Of a stretch of DNA of 6,584 nt, positions 2 through 6,584 are shown one piece after another. Position numbers and translations under genes: made by a program. The notes beneath the pieces are model-generated. The model ran no database searches and had not been told where the DNA came from. It saw only the letters and a list, made by a program, of their open reading frames with translations. Within the stretch, counting starts at the first letter, position 1, and the number at the start of each line of letters is the position of its first letter. The DNA comes from Thiomonas sp. (GTDB lineage Bacteria > Pseudomonadota > Gammaproteobacteria > Burkholderiales > Burkholderiaceae): the NCBI GenBank assembly GCA_027443745.1, contig DAIAZB010000303.1, positions 1 through 6,584 of the forward strand, read 5' to 3'.

Positions 2-1732
2 ATCCTCGCCAACACCTACAAGAGCCGTGGCGAAGCCGTGCCGGTGCTCACCGCCGCCGACTTCCGGCTGGACGACGACGCCTCCGGCATCGGCGCGCTG
101 CTTGAAGCCGTCGCCAACCAGCACCACCGCACGCTGCGCGAGAAGGCGCAGCAGAACATCATCTCGGTGCAGGAGGCACGGTACGACCACGCCAGCATTG
201 CGCCGCACCTGCAGGAAATCATTGGCGCGCTGTGGCTGCGCTCTATTGCGGTCGGTAACCTCGCTGGTGCCGATCCGGCCACGCTGCAACTGGACATCAC
301 GCGCGACATGCCGGTGGACGACAACGCCTTCCAGGTCGAGCTGGCCACTGTCGTCGAGAACAGTTTCAACATCCATCAGGAAGGCACCAAGCTGCTGTTC
401 CGCGAGGAAGAGAACCCGCGCGCCAAGCTCATGGCCTACGCGCGCAACGACAAGCTGTTCGCCGACGGCACCGATCAGGCGCAGCTCGCCAAGCAGGTGC
501 GCTACGTCATTGGCGGCAGCGACGAGGTCGCCAAGACCTTCCGCGTCATCGCCCTGCCGAAATCGTGGGTCAACGATCCGTGGACAGCGCTCGATGAAGC
601 CGAGCAGCCCGACAAGTGGGATGACCGTCTGCCCATCCTCGTGCTGCCCGAAGAGGCCGACAAGCTCGACGCCACGTTGGGCCGCTGGATCAAAGACCAA
701 TTGCAGAAGCGCCGCAACACCGTGCGCTTCCTGTTGCCGCGCGCAGGCAGCACCAACTCCTTCATGGATCGCGACCTGCTCATCCTCACCCGCGCCGAAA
801 TGAAGGCGCAGGAATGGAGCGGCCAGAACCCCGAATACAAGAAGCTGCACAAGGAATTCGAGAACACCCTGCGCGACAACCTGAAGAAGCGGTTCGACCG
901 CTTCGCCGTGCTGCAACGCTGGAATTTCGCCGACCCCGCGCAGTGCAAGTTCAGCGTCGAGCGTCTCGACAAGCAAGGTTCGCAAATCCCTGAAGCCATT
1001 GAGGAGGCGCTGACCGGCGACCTGTTCGTGCCGGAGGACTTCGAGGATCTGGTGCTCGAATACGCCAGCAACAACGAATCGGTCGGCAAGCTGCTGCGTG
1101 AGCTTCAGGAGCCGCGCCCGGCCGGACGGGACTGCATCCCGTGGCTGGGCGAAACGGCGATGAAGGAACGCCTGCTGCGCCTATGCGCCAAGGGCAAGGT
1201 CGCCATCAATTTGCGCGGCATGGAGTGCCTGCAAACGAATCCGGGCGAGGACGAGGACACCGCGTGGCGGCGCTTGCGCCCCAAGCTCTCGCTCACGGGC
1301 CGCCACCTCGACGACGTGTTTGTGATGCTGCCTTCGGCGGTGCCCGCGACGGGTGGCTCCGCGCCGCCCGCGCCGCCGGCGCCGTCGCCGGGTGGTGTTC
1401 CTCCGGGCGGTGGTGCTGCCACCACGCCGGGCGTCACCGATCCACCACCGGGCGGTTTTCCCGCTCCTACGCCAGCGCCGGGCGGCATCTTCGGCGGCGG
1501 CACGGGTGAAGGTGGCGCGACCACCAAGCCGCGCACGCCGCTGTCGAACCCGGCCACGTCGCCGCTCAATCTGATTGGCAAGATCGAAGGCTGGGGCATC
1601 GGCCCGGCCACGAAGGTGGCGGACGTGTCGATCAAGGTGTCCGCCGCCACCGGCGCGCAGCTCAAGGAACTGCTCAAGAAGCTGCCCGAGGGCATGAGCT
1701 TCGAGCTGAACCTTGAGAAGGAGGACGATTGA
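2..1732 (+). CDS. DUF499-type ATPase of a defence locus, C-terminal part (5' truncated)
   Basis: The reading frame is open from the left edge to the TGA at 1730-1732, giving 576 residues with no start in view. A GTG at 38 could be called as a start, but the frame continues upstream and proteins of this kind are usually about 1000 residues, so the P-loop ATPase core is probably off the window. What is visible: a helical alpha/beta region (residues 1-440), including a hydrophobic strand followed by LLPRAG (244-249) and a long charged helical stretch; a helical segment starting RPAGRDCIPWLGE (372-384); a Pro/Gly-rich linker (about 446-505); and a C-terminal module of about 57 residues starting SPLNLIGKIEGWGI. 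This order and C-terminus resemble DUF499 ATPases, which occur beside DUF1156 methyltransferases in predicted defence loci. The role would be analogous to BrxC/PglY in BREX: a large cytoplasmic ATPase in the defence complex. Its stop overlaps the next start by 1 nt. The family call is from recognition, not a search. Confidence 0.75.
   Translation: MLANTYKSRGEAVPVLTAADFRLDDDASGIGALLEAVANQHHRTLREKAQQNIISVQEARYDHASIAPHLQEIIGALWLRSIAVGNLAGADPATLQLDITRDMPVDDNAFQVELATVVENSFNIHQEGTKLLFREEENPRAKLMAYARNDKLFADGTDQAQLAKQVRYVIGGSDEVAKTFRVIALPKSWVNDPWTALDEAEQPDKWDDRLPILVLPEEADKLDATLGRWIKDQLQKRRNTVRFLLPRAGSTNSFMDRDLLILTRAEMKAQEWSGQNPEYKKLHKEFENTLRDNLKKRFDRFAVLQRWNFADPAQCKFSVERLDKQGSQIPEAIEEALTGDLFVPEDFEDLVLEYASNNESVGKLLRELQEPRPAGRDCIPWLGETAMKERLLRLCAKGKVAINLRGMECLQTNPGEDEDTAWRRLRPKLSLTGRHLDDVFVMLPSAVPATGGSAPPAPPAPSPGGVPPGGGAATTPGVTDPPPGGFPAPTPAPGGIFGGGTGEGGATTKPRTPLSNPATSPLNLIGKIEGWGIGPATKVADVSIKVSAATGAQLKELLKKLPEGMSFELNLEKEDD
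1337..1546 (+). other. Pro/Gly-rich low-complexity linker inside the DUF499-type protein
   Basis: This stretch encodes about 70 residues dominated by Pro, Gly, Ala and Thr. In its central 53 residues (SAPPAPPAPS to GTGEGG) 16 are Pro and 16 are Gly. It separates the large N-terminal region from a compact C-terminal module. A flexible tether is the simplest reading, allowing the end module to reach a partner such as the PglZ-like protein or the methyltransferase. The DNA is correspondingly repetitive (CCGGGCGG-type units), which makes it a likely site for length variation between strains. Confidence 0.8.
1718..1724 (+). promoter_or_regulatory. Ribosome binding site for the PglZ-like gene
   Basis: AAGGAGG is a near-perfect Shine-Dalgarno sequence lying 7 nt before the ATG at 1732, inside the last codons of the upstream gene. 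It favours ATG 1732 over the TTG immediately before it (1729) and indicates translational coupling with strong initiation of the downstream gene. Confidence 0.85.
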
Positions 1733-2733
1733 TGGCCCTGACCGCCAGCGCCTTGCAGGCCCTGACACAAGGCTCGGACGCTGACGCTTGGCGCGTCATC
1801 ATCGACCATGCGCTCGGAATCGCCGCCAAGCCTCTGGCCGCCGGCAACGCGCCCAGCGAGGTCGTCAGGCGCGACCGCGAAATCGGCGAACTGGATCTGT
1901 TCCTGTCCTCCAGCGGCTGGGATTTGTGGCAAGTCTTCGGTGGCAGCGTCGAACGCACCTCGGATCGCTTGTTGCGCTGGTGGGCCGAACCCTTCAGTGC
2001 CAAGGCCGTGCTCATCCTCGATGGGCTGTCACTGCGCGAACTGCCGTGGCTGTTGCAGGGCGCGAAGGAACGCGGTTTCACCACGCAGGAGGTCGCTGCC
2101 TGTGCCTCCGAGCTGCCCGGTGAAACCGATGAGTTCGCTCACGCGCTCGGCTTCGCCAGTCGCAGCAAGCTCCAGAACAACGGCGGCGGCCTCGCGCACA
2201 AGCTGCAAGCGGCCAGCACCGAGACGGTGGATTTGCCGTGGAAGGACTGCGAGAGCCTGATCAGCAGCGCGCCGAACCAGATCTTCTGGCACCACTGGCC
2301 CGACGCCAAGCTGCACGACGGTTCCGGCGCAGGCCAGGGGCTGGAGCCGCTGACGAAGGACGTGGCCGAGCAGTTGTCCAGTGACGACTTTTGGGCCTTC
2401 GTCGAACGCCTTGCCACCGGGCGGCGGCTGGCCATCACTTCCGACCACGGCTACGCGGCCACCGGCTACTTCCCCGATGCCGACGGCGAGGTCGGCCAGT
2501 TCCTCAAGCAGACGTTCTCAAGCGGGCGCAGCAAGCCGGGCACGGGCCTGACCCAAAACGACTGCGGCCCCTTCGTGCCGCCCGTTGCCTTGCAGATCAC
2601 CAGCCCGCACGGCGCGCACCTGTTGGCCTTGGGCCGCAGGAAATGGCGCAGCCAGGGTGGCTACCCGACGCTCACGCATGGCGGCCTGTCGCTGCTGGAA
2701 GTGCTGTCGCCCTTCGTCGAGCTGACCAAGTAA
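1732..2733 (+). CDS. Short PglZ-domain protein (alkaline phosphatase superfamily)
   Basis: The product is 333 residues from ATG 1732, chosen for the AAGGAGG site 7 nt upstream. Three blocks fit the alkaline-phosphatase-superfamily PglZ fold: AVLILDGLSLRE (92-103) with candidate metal ligand D97; PDAKLH (190-195), a D-x3-H pair (D191, H195); and ITSDHGYA (235-242) with D238-H239. The C-terminal block THGGLSLLEVLSPF (315-328) carries H316 and resembles the HGG-type ending of PglZ proteins. A full ligand set thus seems present, so metal-dependent phosphoester hydrolysis is plausible; I could not assign the nucleophile (S100 is only a candidate). BREX/Pgl PglZ proteins are typically 700-900 residues, so this is close to a bare catalytic core. 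There is no signal peptide or membrane segment, so it is cytoplasmic. It starts 1 nt inside the ATPase gene and ends 13 nt before the methyltransferase, suggesting equimolar partners. PglZ is essential in BREX but its substrate is not settled. Confidence 0.8.
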   Translation: MALTASALQALTQGSDADAWRVIIDHALGIAAKPLAAGNAPSEVVRRDREIGELDLFLSSSGWDLWQVFGGSVERTSDRLLRWWAEPFSAKAVLILDGLSLRELPWLLQGAKERGFTTQEVAACASELPGETDEFAHALGFASRSKLQNNGGGLAHKLQAASTETVDLPWKDCESLISSAPNQIFWHHWPDAKLHDGSGAGQGLEPLTKDVAEQLSSDDFWAFVERLATGRRLAITSDHGYAATGYFPDADGEVGQFLKQTFSSGRSKPGTGLTQNDCGPFVPPVALQITSPHGAHLLALGRRKWRSQGGYPTLTHGGLSLLEVLSPFVELTK

Positions 2734-2736
2734 GGA
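2731..2736 (+). promoter_or_regulatory. Probable ribosome binding site for the methyltransferase gene
   Basis: TAAGGA overlaps the stop codon of the upstream gene and sits 10 nt before ATG 2747. A second purine run, GAGG at 2740-2743, is only 3 nt from the ATG and is probably too close. The 13-nt gap between genes holds no other signal. Confidence 0.5.
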
Positions 2737-2746
2737 TTCGAGGCTG

Positions 2747-5700
2747 ATGGCCACCAAAAAACAACTACTCGCACAACAAGTCGCCAAAGCCGTCGGCGCA
2801 GGCAAGACCGTTGCGCTGGAAACCGTCGATTTCAACGACGCGAACCGTTCCAAAACCTGCCTGGAGGTGGATTTCCCGATCGTATCGGTCAACCAAATTG
2901 CCGCAATTGAGGGAAAGGGGTCTGGTGCTCTAAAGCCCATCTATCAAGTATCAAAATGGTGGGCGCGGCGGCGTTCCAGCGTGTTCCGCTCCATGCTGAT
3001 TGCGGCGGCGACCAAAGCTCCGAGCGACCCTTCGCACGCGGCCAAACTGGTGTGGGACAACTACTACGCCAACCACCAGAAGAAGGGAGCGTTCAAACAC
3101 CTGAAAGTCGCGGACATCTTCATGGGGGGCGGTACCACGCTGGTGGAAGGCTCGCGCTTGGGCATGCAGATGGTCGGCAACGACCTCAACCCGGTCGCAT
3201 GGTTCGTGGTCAAGCAGGAACTGGCCAATGTCGATCTGGAGCAAGTGAAGAAGCTACTCGCCGACATCGAGGCCGAGGTCAAGCCGCAGATCGTGCCCTT
3301 CTACTACTGCGACGGGCCGGAAGGCGAGAAGGGCAAGTGGACGCACCTGCCGACGAACAAGGCGATGCCCTCCGATTTCGACCCCCTCGCCATCCCGCGC
3401 AGCGAGCGCAAGGACTATCGCTACGAAGGCCCGGAGATCATTTACACCTTCTGGGCCAAGCACGGGCCGTGTCAGGTGACAGGTTGCGGCCACCGCACGC
3501 CGATCATGACCAGCCCGGTGATGGCGGTGAAGACGCTGACGGTGAAATCGTGGGGGCACACCTGCGGCAAGTGCGGCGAGGAGTTCGACGTGGAGGAAGA
3601 AGCCGCGCGAATGGCTCCCGGCGCACCGTTCTACGATTCGCCCAGCGAAACCCCGTATTCCGTGCTCGACCGCAAGAAGGGCGTGATCTGCCCGCACTGC
3701 GGTCACACAGCGCTGGTGAATCTGGGCAAGGGCAAGAACAAGAAGGTGGAACTGAGCTTGCTGGTGCATCCGCAATGGCTGGCCGGCGAGGCCAAGCAGG
3801 ATGCGAATGGCCAGCCCTACGGCGGTTCGGCGCAGGACGATGTGGCGGCGACCACGCGCTGGGATGCGGCACGCGCCGCGAATATTCGCTTGCTGGAGGT
3901 GCGCGGTGCGTTGCCGGATGAAGTGACCGATCCGGAAACGGGTGTCACGTTCGCGCCCGAAAAAGGTACGGTACCCAAGAAATCGCACTACGCCTGCGCC
4001 GCCTGCGGCACGGTGCAGGACGTGCTGACCACCATCAAGGCCACGGCCAAGACCGGGCCGATGGCGGCCTACGCGGTGCAGGGCTTCGCGCCCAAGCGCG
4101 ATGCGGCGGGCAATCCCTACGGCGGGCGCTTCATCGCTGCGTACGACGCGGCCCACGCACGGCGGTACGACAGCGCGTTCGCAGAATGGGAAGCTCGCAA
4201 AGACGCCGATCTCAAGGAATACTGGCCACGTTCCGGTGTGCCATATGGCTTCATGACCAGCATCGCCAATGGGGACATCCGCGATGGTCACGGCTTTACC
4301 CACTGGTGGACGATGTTCAACCCGCGCCAGTTGCTCGTTCATGCGCAACTACTGAAGGCCATCGTGAACGTCGGCAGCTACGACTGGAAGGTGCGGGAAT
4401 ATGTGCTTGGAGCCTTCCAGCAGTACGTTCGTAACCAGGACATGTTCTGTTTCTGGAACCTGCAACGAGCGCTGGAGCCGATGTTCTCGAATAACAATTT
4501 TCACCCCAAGATGAACGTGGTAGAAAATTCTGTATTTTCGAGGCTGGGCCGGGGCGATTTCACTTCGTGTGGATCGAAAGCACTGGAGTCGCAAGTATGG
4601 GCAGAAAATCCTTGGGAAATTGCATGCTTTGACGATGATAAGCACAGTGAGAAGGTAACTACTGGCGACGCCATTTCTCCTAAGAATGTTGATATTTCTT
4701 GTCATTCAACAACAGACTTAAGCAGTCTTGCGGCAGGCTCAATCGACCTTGTCATCACAGACCCACCCTTCGGCGGCCTGCTGCACTACTCGGAGCTGTC
4801 CGATTTCTTCTACGTCTGGCTGCGCCTGGCGCTGAAGGACAAGTACCCAGACTACTTCGGCAAAGACTATACGCCCAAGTCTCTGGAGGCGGTAGCCAAC
4901 CGCGCGCGCGAGCCGGAAGACCCGGACGGCTTCTACCAGCGCCTGCTCACCCAGTGCTGGCGCGAGGCGCATCGGGCGCTCAAGCCCAGCGGCATCCTCG
5001 CCTTCACCTTCCACCACAGCGAGGACGAACCGTGGGTGGCGGTGCTGGAATCGCTGTTCGATGCGGGCTACTACCTCGAAGCGACGTACCCGATCCGCTC
5101 CGACGAGACCAAGGGCGACGGCGAGTTCGGCTCCAAGACCATCGAGTACGACATCATCCACGTCTGCCGCAAGCGCACCGAGGAACCCAAGCCGGTGAGC
5201 TGGGGCCGGATGCGCCGCGAGGTGATGGCCGACGTGCGCCAGTTGCAGGCCATGCTGGAGAACCACGCCAAGGAAGGTCTGCCCGCCGCCGACATCCAGG
5301 TCATCCGGCGCGGCAAGGCACTGGAATACTTCTCGCGCCACTACGGCAAGGTGTATGTCGATGAAGGCCGCACCATCTCCGTGCGCGACGCGCTGGTTGG
5401 CATCAACCAGCTCATCGACGAGGATGCCGACAAGGGCAAGGAAGCGCCGCCGGTGAACGCCGAGCCGATTTCGCGCCAGTTTCTGCGCACCTTCGGCCAT
5501 GCCGCCGAACTGAAGCGCGACCAGTTGCAGAAGTTCCTCAAAGGCTCGATCACCACGCCGGATGAGTTCGTGCAGCGTGGCTGGTGCGCGGAGAAGAACA
5601 AGGTGTTCACCCGCACCGATGCGCTGGAGTTCGCACGCGAGTGGTCGGGCAAGCACCGCCGCCGCCTGACCTCCGATCTGGATCAGGCGCTGGTGCTGAT

Positions 5701-5938
5701 CGGCGCGTGCGTCGACGGCAGCGGCATCAATGCCTCGGACACGCTGAAGAACGACAACTTTAAACCGCACGTTGCGCTCAAGCCGCTGCTGGAATGGTTG
5801 CACCGCAACGGCCCGGATCAGACCACCCGCAACGCCGCGTCGCGTGCGGTGTCCATCTACAACTCCTGGCACGCGAGCCAAGCACCCCAGCCCGCGCAGG
5901 GTGCCTTGTTCGATGACGATGGGGAGTACGGGCGATGA
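2747..5938 (+). CDS. DUF1156-type DNA methyltransferase with zinc-ribbon inserts
   Basis: The 1063-residue protein opens with the DUF1156 signature: FPIVSVNQIA (43-52) and YQVSKWWARRRSSVFRSM (66-83). SAM-binding motif I is IFMGGGTT (124-131), followed by the acidic motif II region NDLNPVAW (145-152). Catalytic motif IV is DPPF (672-675), then HYSELSDFFYVWLR, typical of N6-adenine or N4-cytosine methyltransferases of the COG1743 type. Between motifs I and IV lies a roughly 540-residue insert with paired cysteines (C242/C247 with C273/C276; C315/C318 with C417/C420) that look like zinc ribbons, plus the family-like FTHWWTMFNPRQLL (517-530). A region after about 815 is of unassigned function, probably DNA or partner contact, and the tail carries QGALF (1051-1055). 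The likely role is epigenetic marking of host DNA in a BREX/Pgl-like defence system. Codons for about 581-665 have unusual composition. The ATG of the next gene overlaps its stop. The target sequence and the methylated base cannot be read from sequence. Confidence 0.9.
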   Translation: MATKKQLLAQQVAKAVGAGKTVALETVDFNDANRSKTCLEVDFPIVSVNQIAAIEGKGSGALKPIYQVSKWWARRRSSVFRSMLIAAATKAPSDPSHAAKLVWDNYYANHQKKGAFKHLKVADIFMGGGTTLVEGSRLGMQMVGNDLNPVAWFVVKQELANVDLEQVKKLLADIEAEVKPQIVPFYYCDGPEGEKGKWTHLPTNKAMPSDFDPLAIPRSERKDYRYEGPEIIYTFWAKHGPCQVTGCGHRTPIMTSPVMAVKTLTVKSWGHTCGKCGEEFDVEEEAARMAPGAPFYDSPSETPYSVLDRKKGVICPHCGHTALVNLGKGKNKKVELSLLVHPQWLAGEAKQDANGQPYGGSAQDDVAATTRWDAARAANIRLLEVRGALPDEVTDPETGVTFAPEKGTVPKKSHYACAACGTVQDVLTTIKATAKTGPMAAYAVQGFAPKRDAAGNPYGGRFIAAYDAAHARRYDSAFAEWEARKDADLKEYWPRSGVPYGFMTSIANGDIRDGHGFTHWWTMFNPRQLLVHAQLLKAIVNVGSYDWKVREYVLGAFQQYVRNQDMFCFWNLQRALEPMFSNNNFHPKMNVVENSVFSRLGRGDFTSCGSKALESQVWAENPWEIACFDDDKHSEKVTTGDAISPKNVDISCHSTTDLSSLAAGSIDLVITDPPFGGLLHYSELSDFFYVWLRLALKDKYPDYFGKDYTPKSLEAVANRAREPEDPDGFYQRLLTQCWREAHRALKPSGILAFTFHHSEDEPWVAVLESLFDAGYYLEATYPIRSDETKGDGEFGSKTIEYDIIHVCRKRTEEPKPVSWGRMRREVMADVRQLQAMLENHAKEGLPAADIQVIRRGKALEYFSRHYGKVYVDEGRTISVRDALVGINQLIDEDADKGKEAPPVNAEPISRQFLRTFGHAAELKRDQLQKFLKGSITTPDEFVQRGWCAEKNKVFTRTDALEFAREWSGKHRRRLTSDLDQALVLIGACVDGSGINASDTLKNDNFKPHVALKPLLEWLHRNGPDQTTRNAASRAVSIYNSWHASQAPQPAQGALFDDDGEYGR
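2881..2960 (+). other. Smaller low-GC patch over the DUF1156 signature
   Basis: Hand counting gives about 46% G+C over these 80 bases, with A-rich codons (AAA, CAA, ATT, GTA, TCA) in the segment encoding the start of the DUF1156 domain. Flanking DNA returns to high G+C at about 2961. It is short, so the shift could reflect conserved Lys, Ile and Gln residues and not transfer. Confidence 0.5.
4487..4741 (+). other. Low-GC island inside the methyltransferase gene
   Basis: G+C falls to about 47% over 4501-4740 by hand count (about 40% over 4681-4740), against 67-68% in sampled downstream lines (4981-5040 and 5281-5340). Codons rare elsewhere in the window cluster here: GTA four times, TTA, AGG, TCA, ACA, AAT and TTT. 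The frame is intact. The segment encodes the run leading into the DPPF motif, including VENSVFSRLGRGDF. A recombination patch from a lower-GC homologue, or incomplete codon amelioration, would explain it. Confidence 0.75.
5897..5911 (+). other. QxxLF peptide in the methyltransferase tail (possible sliding-clamp-binding motif)
   Basis: The codons spell Q-G-A-L-F (residues 1051-1055) in a Pro/Ala/Gln-rich, probably disordered tail, 8 residues from the end and followed by DDD. It fits the QxxLF form of the bacterial beta-clamp-binding consensus (QL[SD]LF), which often sits in flexible ends of DNA-acting enzymes. Short motifs of this kind also occur by chance, so the function is inference. Confidence 0.35.
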
Positions 5939-6432
5939 GGCAACTGCGCGACACGGTGTGGCAACGGCGAGGCACCAGTTGGGTGTGGGACGAAGAGGCC
6001 CGCAACCAGATCTGCGCGGCCAGCGAGGTGTGGAGCCTGCGCCAGTTCCTCCGTGCGAAAGGAAACTGGCCAGACGACCTGCCCAGCAATGGCGGCAGGA
6101 CGCTGGTGGTGGCCGGGCTGGATGGCAGCCTCGATCTGCTGACGCCGACGGATGCCGAAGCGTGGCTGGGCGATGCGATCAAGCCCGCCATCCTGTCGTT
6201 TCAGGACGAGTACGAAGGCGATGCGGCGCTGGCGTTCTGGCTGCCCGGCGGCCACAACCGCGTCAAGGCACAGGCGGCCACCGATGAGGTGGGTTGGCTG
6301 TGCCACACGCCGCACGGACATCAGATCGACTTCGGCCGCATTCTTTGGGGCCAAGCCAACGAGTACCCGCAGGAGATTCTGCTGCGCGACGGCGGCAGGC
6401 CCGCTGGCCTGTTCCATCTGCGGATTACTTGA
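5935..6432 (+). CDS. 165-residue protein of unknown function in the defence operon
   Basis: I do not recognise a named family. ATG 5935 overlaps the methyltransferase stop by 4 nt (ATGA), with GGGGAG at 5921-5926 as a suitably placed ribosome binding site, so expression is coupled to the methyltransferase. The protein is soluble-looking, with no signal or membrane segment. It reads as a small alpha/beta domain: a basic N-terminus; a strand at TLVVAGLDGSLDLL (56-69); a helix with WLGDAIKPAI (77-86); ALAFWLPGGHNRVK (98-111), which looks like the most constrained block; a Trp/Cys/His stretch GWLCHTPHGHQID (120-132); and FGRILWG (133-139), ending GLFHLRIT (158-165). There is no obvious nuclease or ATPase motif. 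Position and size suit an accessory or scaffold subunit comparable in place to the small BREX proteins or DUF3780, but homology to any of these is not shown. Confidence 0.85.
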   Translation: MRQLRDTVWQRRGTSWVWDEEARNQICAASEVWSLRQFLRAKGNWPDDLPSNGGRTLVVAGLDGSLDLLTPTDAEAWLGDAIKPAILSFQDEYEGDAALAFWLPGGHNRVKAQAATDEVGWLCHTPHGHQIDFGRILWGQANEYPQEILLRDGGRPAGLFHLRIT

Positions 6433-6451
6433 GTGACGGCTGAGTGACGGC
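6430..6451 (+). repeat. Perfect 11-bp tandem duplication at a gene junction
   Basis: TGAGTGACGGC occurs twice in direct succession (6430-6440 and 6441-6451). Each copy contains a TGA stop followed immediately by a GTG start. The first TGA ends the 165-residue gene. The GTG of copy one (6433) opens only GTG-ACG-GCT-GAG-TGA, whereas the GTG of copy two (6444) opens the downstream gene. The mini-ORF stop overlaps the real start as GTGA. With a single copy, the downstream gene would begin directly after the upstream stop. Confidence 0.9.
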
Positions 6452-6584
6452 AGAGATTCAGTTCCAACCCGGCGAGCGCATCACTCACCACGAGTACGGA
6501 CAGGGTGTCGTTGTCGATCCGGCGCGTGACGGCTACCTGCGCGCGTTCTTCGGCGTCGGCGAACGCCGCGTGCCGGTGGCGTCG
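6444..6584 (+). CDS. N-terminal 47 codons of a probable helicase (3' truncated)
   Basis: The frame from GTG 6444 stays open to the right edge. An in-frame TGA sits immediately upstream (6441-6443), so the start cannot be further left, and GTG 6444 is the first plausible initiator. No clear Shine-Dalgarno sequence precedes it, so initiation probably depends on coupling to the upstream gene. The peptide includes FQPGERITHHEYGQGVVVDP, then GYLRAFFGVGERRVPV. This pattern of GERV-H-YG-G-VV followed by a strand and F-G-G-R-V-PV resembles the small beta-barrel lead-in domain found at the N-terminus of some UvrD-like and SNF2/DEAD-type helicases and of CarD-like proteins. After DUF499, PglZ and DUF1156 genes, a helicase is the expected partner, but no helicase motif lies inside the window, so the product call is inference. 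Confidence 0.55.
   Translation, partial: MTAEIQFQPGERITHHEYGQGVVVDPARDGYLRAFFGVGERRVPVAS

Follow-up and report, generated by a model that had tools for sequence, protein, structure and literature searches.

We analyzed a stretch of 6,584 nucleotides from Thiomonas sp. (contig DAIAZB010000303.1 of assembly GCA_027443745.1), hereafter called the window, which contains five consecutive genes on the + strand for a DUF499-type ATPase, a standalone PglZ, an adenine DNA methyltransferase, a protein of 165 amino acids (aa) and the start of a helicase. They make up most of a five-gene bacterial operon whose role is probably antiviral. Placed by its gene set, and not by the published DUF499 tree, it is a probable member of the Type-3 BREX-Related (BR) systems (BREX, bacteriophage exclusion), which were first described in January 2026 (Rakesh & Krishnan 2026, PMC12839542; statements on this paper refer to its main text). 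We consider it fairly likely that the window holds most of a Type-3 BR operon, with a methyltransferase of the DUF1156 type, a small candidate inactive STAND (iSTAND) protein and a nuclease-free SNF2 helicase, and that this operon works in the manner proposed below. New here are the exchangeable, slot-bound cassettes in relatives of the operon and a sharply bounded hypervariable block in the methyltransferase.

Gene set and place among known systems

The published subtype, recorded in 569 taxa, consists of a DUF499 ATPase, an N6-methyltransferase, a nuclease-free helicase, a near-universal standalone PglZ and, in 82% of the taxa, an iSTAND protein (PMC12839542); the accessible text of PMC13326643 repeats this description. 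The window operon has the first four components and one small gene. It differs from the published main text in that its small gene is an iSTAND candidate only and in that its relatives carry SIR2-HerA and IetAS cassettes. The Type-3 BR reading is based on the constant gene order, on the fold and residues of PglZ and its alignment to a BREX-1 PglZ, on the BrxHI|BrxHII-like, nuclease-free helicase, and on the match to the published set. A first-pass annotation, made from the sequence alone, had suggested that the operon, which fits none of the classical BREX types, may be a little-described branch of PglZ-centred immunity. The PglZ-centred branch and the mismatch both stand; undescribed the branch is not, since it has been published as Type-3 BR.

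With the classical BREX types 1-6 the operon shares the PglZ fold, but BrxC (DUF6079) is neither among the PADLOC matches of its ATPase orthologue nor the top Pfam match, which is DUF499. Compared to Type-3 BREX, the PglZ and the methyltransferase are of related kinds and the helicase orthologue is closest to BrxHI|BrxHII (338.2 bits in PADLOC), whereas DUF499 stands in place of BrxC, PglZ is reduced to its domain and no BrxA-like gene is found among the five genes. Hma, or Type-1 BR, is matched by the window methyltransferase (HmaB, 123.9 bits in PADLOC) and by the helicase orthologue (HmaA, 309.7 bits). Unlike that three-gene set, the window operon adds PglZ and the small gene, its ATPase orthologue reaches only 15.1 bits to HmaC, and its helicase orthologue (locus L081) carries no nuclease family in Pfam.

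To sample relatives, species genomes were scanned with the window methyltransferase, and the best 80 of 175 loci were combined with two plasmid loci to give 82 loci (L numbers). The rates of inserts and of co-occurrence reported here hold for this clade and not for all Type-3 BR systems, because the loci were picked by similarity to the window methyltransferase. Wherever the five genes were found, they stood in one order and on one strand. Of the 82 loci, 81 showed the small gene, 77 showed PglZ and 69 all five genes. Among the loci in which no PglZ was found, the contig ends within the methyltransferase gene in L051 and L067, and the contig of L080 begins inside a HerA gene abutting the methyltransferase. 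Other frames occupy the 1.2 kb before the methyltransferase of L066. In L041 the methyltransferase lies on a 4-kb contig, and neither PglZ nor the small gene is recognisable in its flanks of 390 and 396 nt. Thus, the co-occurrence is strong but has exceptions, since the loci without PglZ include L041 and L066. Xanthomonas dyei L001 is the row nearest to the window in the core tree, with 94% identity over 1059 columns. The Aminobacter sp. SR38 plasmid pSR6 shows 81.3% DNA identity over 92% of the window and encodes full-length proteins of 914 (ATPase), 329 (PglZ), 1070 (methyltransferase), 165 (small protein) and 924 aa (helicase).

The junctions are tight and recur in the relatives. The ATPase and pglZ genes overlap by 1 nt at position 1732 (-1 nt in 71 of 74 relatives), pglZ is followed by a 13-nt gap at 2734-2746 (11-14 nt in 43/77), the methyltransferase and small genes overlap by 4 nt at 5935-5938 (-4 nt in 55/80), and an 11-nt gap at 6433-6443 precedes the helicase (9-11 nt in 50/74). 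These are the junctions given in the first-pass annotation, and its view of the genes as one unit agrees with their conservation as a unit in relatives.

Since the window holds only parts of the ATPase and the helicase, both were identified through full-length orthologues, for example those of Aminobacter pSR6. The ATPase frame (2-1732, + strand, open at the 5' end) encodes the C-terminal 576 of about 914 residues, the nucleotide-binding part lying outside the window, and no Pfam family matches this piece. The full-length orthologue of L081 (914 aa) has DUF499 as its top Pfam match (32.8 bits, E 2.3e-8, cut-off 23), in agreement with the first-pass assignment, and Walker A is present in 72 of 74 full-length relatives. 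In PADLOC, the orthologue matches only HmaC and mad8. A proline/glycine-rich linker of variable length at about 1350-1530 (aa ~776-850 in L081) joins the ATPase body to the last ~65 residues, and its column identity falls to 0.40-0.69 among near relatives. The helicase frame (6444-6584, + strand, GTG at 6444, open to 6584) provides 47 residues that are weakly Tudor-like (PcrA_UvrD_tudor, E 0.021, under the Pfam cut-off). In the L081 orthologue the SNF2-rel_dom and Helicase_C families are clear, in line with the probable helicase of the first-pass annotation.

PglZ, methyltransferase and the small protein

The pglZ gene (1732-2733, + strand, ATG at 1732) encodes 333 aa. No Pfam family matches the protein and PADLOC 2023 scores it at only 9.4 bits. 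By sequence and modelling, the PglZ fold and the metal-site residues are present in the standalone domain, a reduced PglZ as in the first-pass annotation; the activity itself is predicted, with D97, T132, D191, H195, D238, H239 and H316 as the predicted catalytic and metal residues. Aligned by profile, the window PglZ and one BREX-1 PglZ (L095) scored 34.8, a value that none of 200 shuffled templates reached; L095 alone aligned, and the BREX PglZ proteins of L093 and L094 gave no profile alignment. A search of solved structures by sequence returned no meaningful match for either PglZ or the 165-aa protein. The window PglZ lacks the N-terminal domain by which, according to a published prediction, BrxB holds PglZ in Type-1 BREX. 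Therefore, the minimal system either works with no such contact or has a different one.

The methyltransferase gene (2747-5938, + strand) encodes 1063 aa with motif I at about 3119-3139 and DPPF at 4760-4771. The protein matches the Pfam family N6_N4_Mtase at 29.9 bits (cut-off 26.7), and the first-pass assignment as a methyltransferase is thus clear. The DUF1156 type named in that annotation is a probable assignment, with a match that stays below the Pfam cut-off (16.4 versus 24 bits). In the methyltransferase (METHYLTRANSFERASE), four cysteine pairs lie between motif I and DPPF (3470-4006; pairs at aa 242, 273, 315 and 417) and probably form two four-cysteine zinc fingers. Three CxxC pairs occur within aa 180-520 in 72 of 81 relatives, and this number fits the two-finger reading because the first pair is spaced wider. 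Two zinc fingers are likewise described for a smaller group among the Type-3 BR methyltransferases (PMC12839542).

Between motif I and DPPF, the methyltransferase also contains a hypervariable block (4457-4742, aa 571-665), suggested by its sequence pattern to be the probable target-recognition segment. DNA alignments to 14 near relatives showed about 79-91% identity on both sides of the block. They broke off between 3972 and 4537, and the main match resumed at 4743-4751 in all 14, just 5' of DPPF; one short extra match inside the stretch was seen in L009. Compared to L001, no blastn match was obtained over 4457-4742, with flanks 90-91% identical. The mean column identity in the block was 0.56-0.72 per 25 residues, as compared to 0.84 for the whole protein (16 rows).

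The small gene (5935-6432, + strand) encodes the conserved 165-aa protein, for which PADLOC 2023 has no model. Structure prediction gave a confident alpha/beta model that is close in structure to P-loop cores, among them RAD51, KaiC and Hda, and no Walker A was found, which makes the protein a candidate iSTAND. Profile comparison to one BrxB gave no match, and the BrxB homologue search returned only near-identical proteins among the matches listed.

The proposed working joins these features, seen in sequence and modelling, to steps that we infer. The methyltransferase would mark host DNA at a site read by the hypervariable segment and the zinc fingers, and scanning would be the task of a complex of the ATPase, the small protein and the helicase. 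PglZ, as a metal-dependent phosphodiesterase, would nick or cut invading DNA that lacks the mark. In relatives, two junctions hold cassettes that would act as second-line defence and move between operons by recombination. No experiment on the Type-3 BR subtype was found in the accessible texts of the literature.

Several alternatives bear on this proposal. The small protein might be an unrelated adaptor or DNA-binding protein, a view that we find somewhat doubtful given the confident model with its P-loop-core neighbours, the missing Walker A and the frequency of iSTAND proteins in the published subtype. PglZ could instead be a phosphodiesterase that, as in PorX, has nucleotides or oligonucleotide signals as substrates, and regulate the system or drain a pool, with restriction coming from a helicase complex that blocks replication. 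This is rather unlikely, since PglZ of Type-1 is reported to nick plasmid DNA and to linearise it in vitro, and since a nuclease takes the Type-3 place of PglZ in Type-1 and Type-2 BR systems (PMC12839542). Copies of the operon occur on conjugative and other plasmids, consistent with a role in maintenance of plasmids or elements, or in epigenetic regulation, rather than in phage defence. IetAS, moreover, was reportedly first named in work on plasmid incompatibility. Set against this are the defence-type gene set, the defence cassettes inside the operon and the hypervariable recognition block, and we regard such a role as improbable. With a PglZ of 333 aa and five genes, the operon is a small system in which to ask whether PglZ does the cutting in BREX and how it is restrained.

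Cassettes between the core genes

None of the four junctions in the window carries an insert. Among the relatives with all five genes, 31 of 69 have inserts of more than 150 nt inside the operon. Over the loci in which the respective junction was found, inserts of this size are unevenly distributed: 0/74 at ATPase-PglZ, 25/77 at PglZ-methyltransferase, 6/80 at methyltransferase-small and 9/74 at small-helicase. Fisher tests against the PglZ-methyltransferase junction gave 6e-9, 1e-4 and 3e-3 for the other three, respectively. The corresponding places in the window are the spacers at 2734-2746 (SIR2-HerA or IetAS in relatives) and 6433-6443 (OLD-type ATPase with DUF4276).

Two pairs recur at the PglZ-methyltransferase junction, in eight loci each. 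The pair of SIR2 and HerA is found in L010, L013, L031, L043, L050, L070, L071 and L082, and PADLOC scores the L010 cassette at 305.7 bits (SIR2) and 738.3 bits (HerA). The pair of an AAA ATPase and a subtilase (IetAS) is found in L003, L005, L011, L029, L032, L034, L036 and L047, with 483.3 bits for IetA and 1060.1 bits for IetS in L003. The TTNYD/HGS motifs of SIR2 and the D/H/S motifs of the subtilase, which we take to be catalytic, are intact in all eight copies of each. The SIR2-HerA cassette is likely an NADase and the IetAS cassette likely a protease. Searches for SIR2, HerA, IetA and IetS over the 82 loci otherwise returned only distantly related genes that lie outside the operon (IetA-like at 33% in L007, HerA-like at 32-35% in L075). 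The HerA of L080 is 93% identical to that of L010 and lies beside a methyltransferase that is 60-62% identical to the query methyltransferases.

A pair of OLD-type ATPase and DUF4276 precedes the helicase in 7 of the 82 loci (HEC-01A, 438.7 bits in PADLOC, for the ATPase of L018; 149 bits in Pfam for the DUF4276 of L047), and the OLD gene is also present in L098. An AlbA-like gene occupies the small-helicase junction in L009 and L015. This type is not slot-bound, because weaker kin sit at the methyltransferase-small junction in L056, L065 and L051. The remaining inserts are single or paired cases, named from sequence only. Two further loci outside the 82, L085/L096 and L098, have no insert, in the latter case at pglZ-methyltransferase, its OLD gene following the small gene. 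The cassettes run in the operon direction with tight joints.

According to PMC12839542, Type-3 BR systems lack auxiliary or backup nucleases or keep them in limited instances, and OLD-type pairs are among the back-up effectors of BREX and BR systems generally. For SIR2-HerA and IetAS this is compatible with our finding, since neither is a nuclease. The main text of that paper mentions no SIR2, sirtuin, subtilisin or IetA, and its supplement may list such cassettes. Our literature search returned no paper on SIR2-HerA nested in BREX, nor on the IetAS subtilisin as an anti-phage protein.

The states none, SIR2, IetAS and other require at least 18 changes, with 7 each for SIR2 and IetAS, on a quick core tree of 78 rows in which 18 of the 75 inner forks are open and the window row is 46% filled. 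Two Stutzerimonas loci, L005 (IetAS) and L013 (SIR2-HerA), align at 93.5% identity over 3,750 bp to a point 22 bp short of the pglZ end, and again at 93.1% over 6,532 bp that begin 5 bp 5' of the methyltransferase start, with unrelated cassettes between. Dyella L003 (IetAS) and L077 (empty) diverge at the same place. Between L003 and L005, the DNA identity is 67-78% for pglZ, 85-94% for IetAS and 83-95% for roughly the initial 750 bp of the methyltransferase gene, which fits transfer of the cassette by recombination in flanking core genes. PglZ ends in SPW[IL]EIS in 7 of the 8 IetAS operons, as compared to 0 of 69 others.

Based on these results, we give about an even chance to the view of the Type-3 BR operon as a chassis that offers two permanent slots, for SIR2-HerA or IetAS at pglZ-methyltransferase and OLD-type ATPase/DUF4276 before the helicase. 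The slots would be filled with interchangeable, mostly non-nuclease second effectors on one transcript, swapped by homologous recombination in the adjacent core genes. Equally poised between true and false is, in our judgement, the view that the cassettes, as defence systems of their own, came to lie where a mobile operon tolerates them and do not cooperate with the core. The recurrence of the same pairs at the same junction, the avoidance of the ATPase-PglZ junction, the orientation in the operon direction and the tight joints all speak against independent landing. In its favour, the SIR2-HerA lineage (75% DNA identity) occurs in 20 of 5,426 Escherichia coli genomes in which a 6.5-kb core piece has no match, and the one context viewed among these 20 is an integrated element without the core. 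The lineage is therefore not tied to the core, and its occurrence without the tested core piece counts against a fixed partnership of core and cassette. On a SIR2 tree, with 113 other rows of no known context, the eight nested copies need 7 changes against a shuffled mean of 7.9 (59 of 500 shufflings as low), i.e., they do not cluster beyond shuffling. On the chassis view, the operon would be a methylation-restriction system with interchangeable second effectors. L005 and L013, about 93% identical in DNA with different back-up modules, make a natural pair of core with likely protease versus core with likely NADase.

The E. coli genomes also refuted a candidate idea, that SIR2-HerA is dedicated to these operons, which had come from plasmid SIR2 matches falling from ~81% to 31% identity among the matches listed.

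Occurrence and further observations

Most hosts are alpha-, beta- or gammaproteobacteria; a few bins come from other phyla and may be mis-binned. The methyltransferase is rare in even genome samples: it was found in 2 of 398 genomes of one genus (E<=1e-100) and in 5 of 399 genomes of one order (E<=1e-150), in both cases including the genome at the centre of the sample. Among phage records, Sulfolobus virus STSV1 was the sole match of the methyltransferase, in 2 records at 22% over 30% of the query, and no SIR2 match was obtained.

Directly 5' of the ATPase gene, a HigA-like antitoxin/regulator gene was observed in 4 of the 82 loci (L081, 6679-6966; L012, L019 and L021), in a region that the window stops short of. 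On the other side, an unnamed gene of ~145 aa lies 3' of the helicase in four loci (L081, 17254-17712; L002, L038 and L077), and also in L096 at 4480-4911 on the - strand. Related genes of ~310 aa are present at the pglZ-methyltransferase junction in L006 (9052-9999) and L046 (9075-9998); the L006 gene has no Pfam or PADLOC match and is a possible unknown defence gene. At the same junction, L054 contains a SIR2-HerA remnant at 9090-9985 with the middle missing (SIR2 aa 1-195, HerA aa 495-603), while its five core genes are complete frames. The operon copy of L082 (7620-20183), with its SIR2-HerA cassette, is located on the conjugative plasmid pK516_KPC of Klebsiella michiganensis, which also carries blaKPC-2. 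The ATPase of this locus, annotated with 705 aa, is missing roughly 200 N-terminal residues, the stretch in which the nucleotide-binding part of orthologues lies. The SIR2-HerA stretch of L082 was found in 34 plasmid records at an identity of at least 99%.

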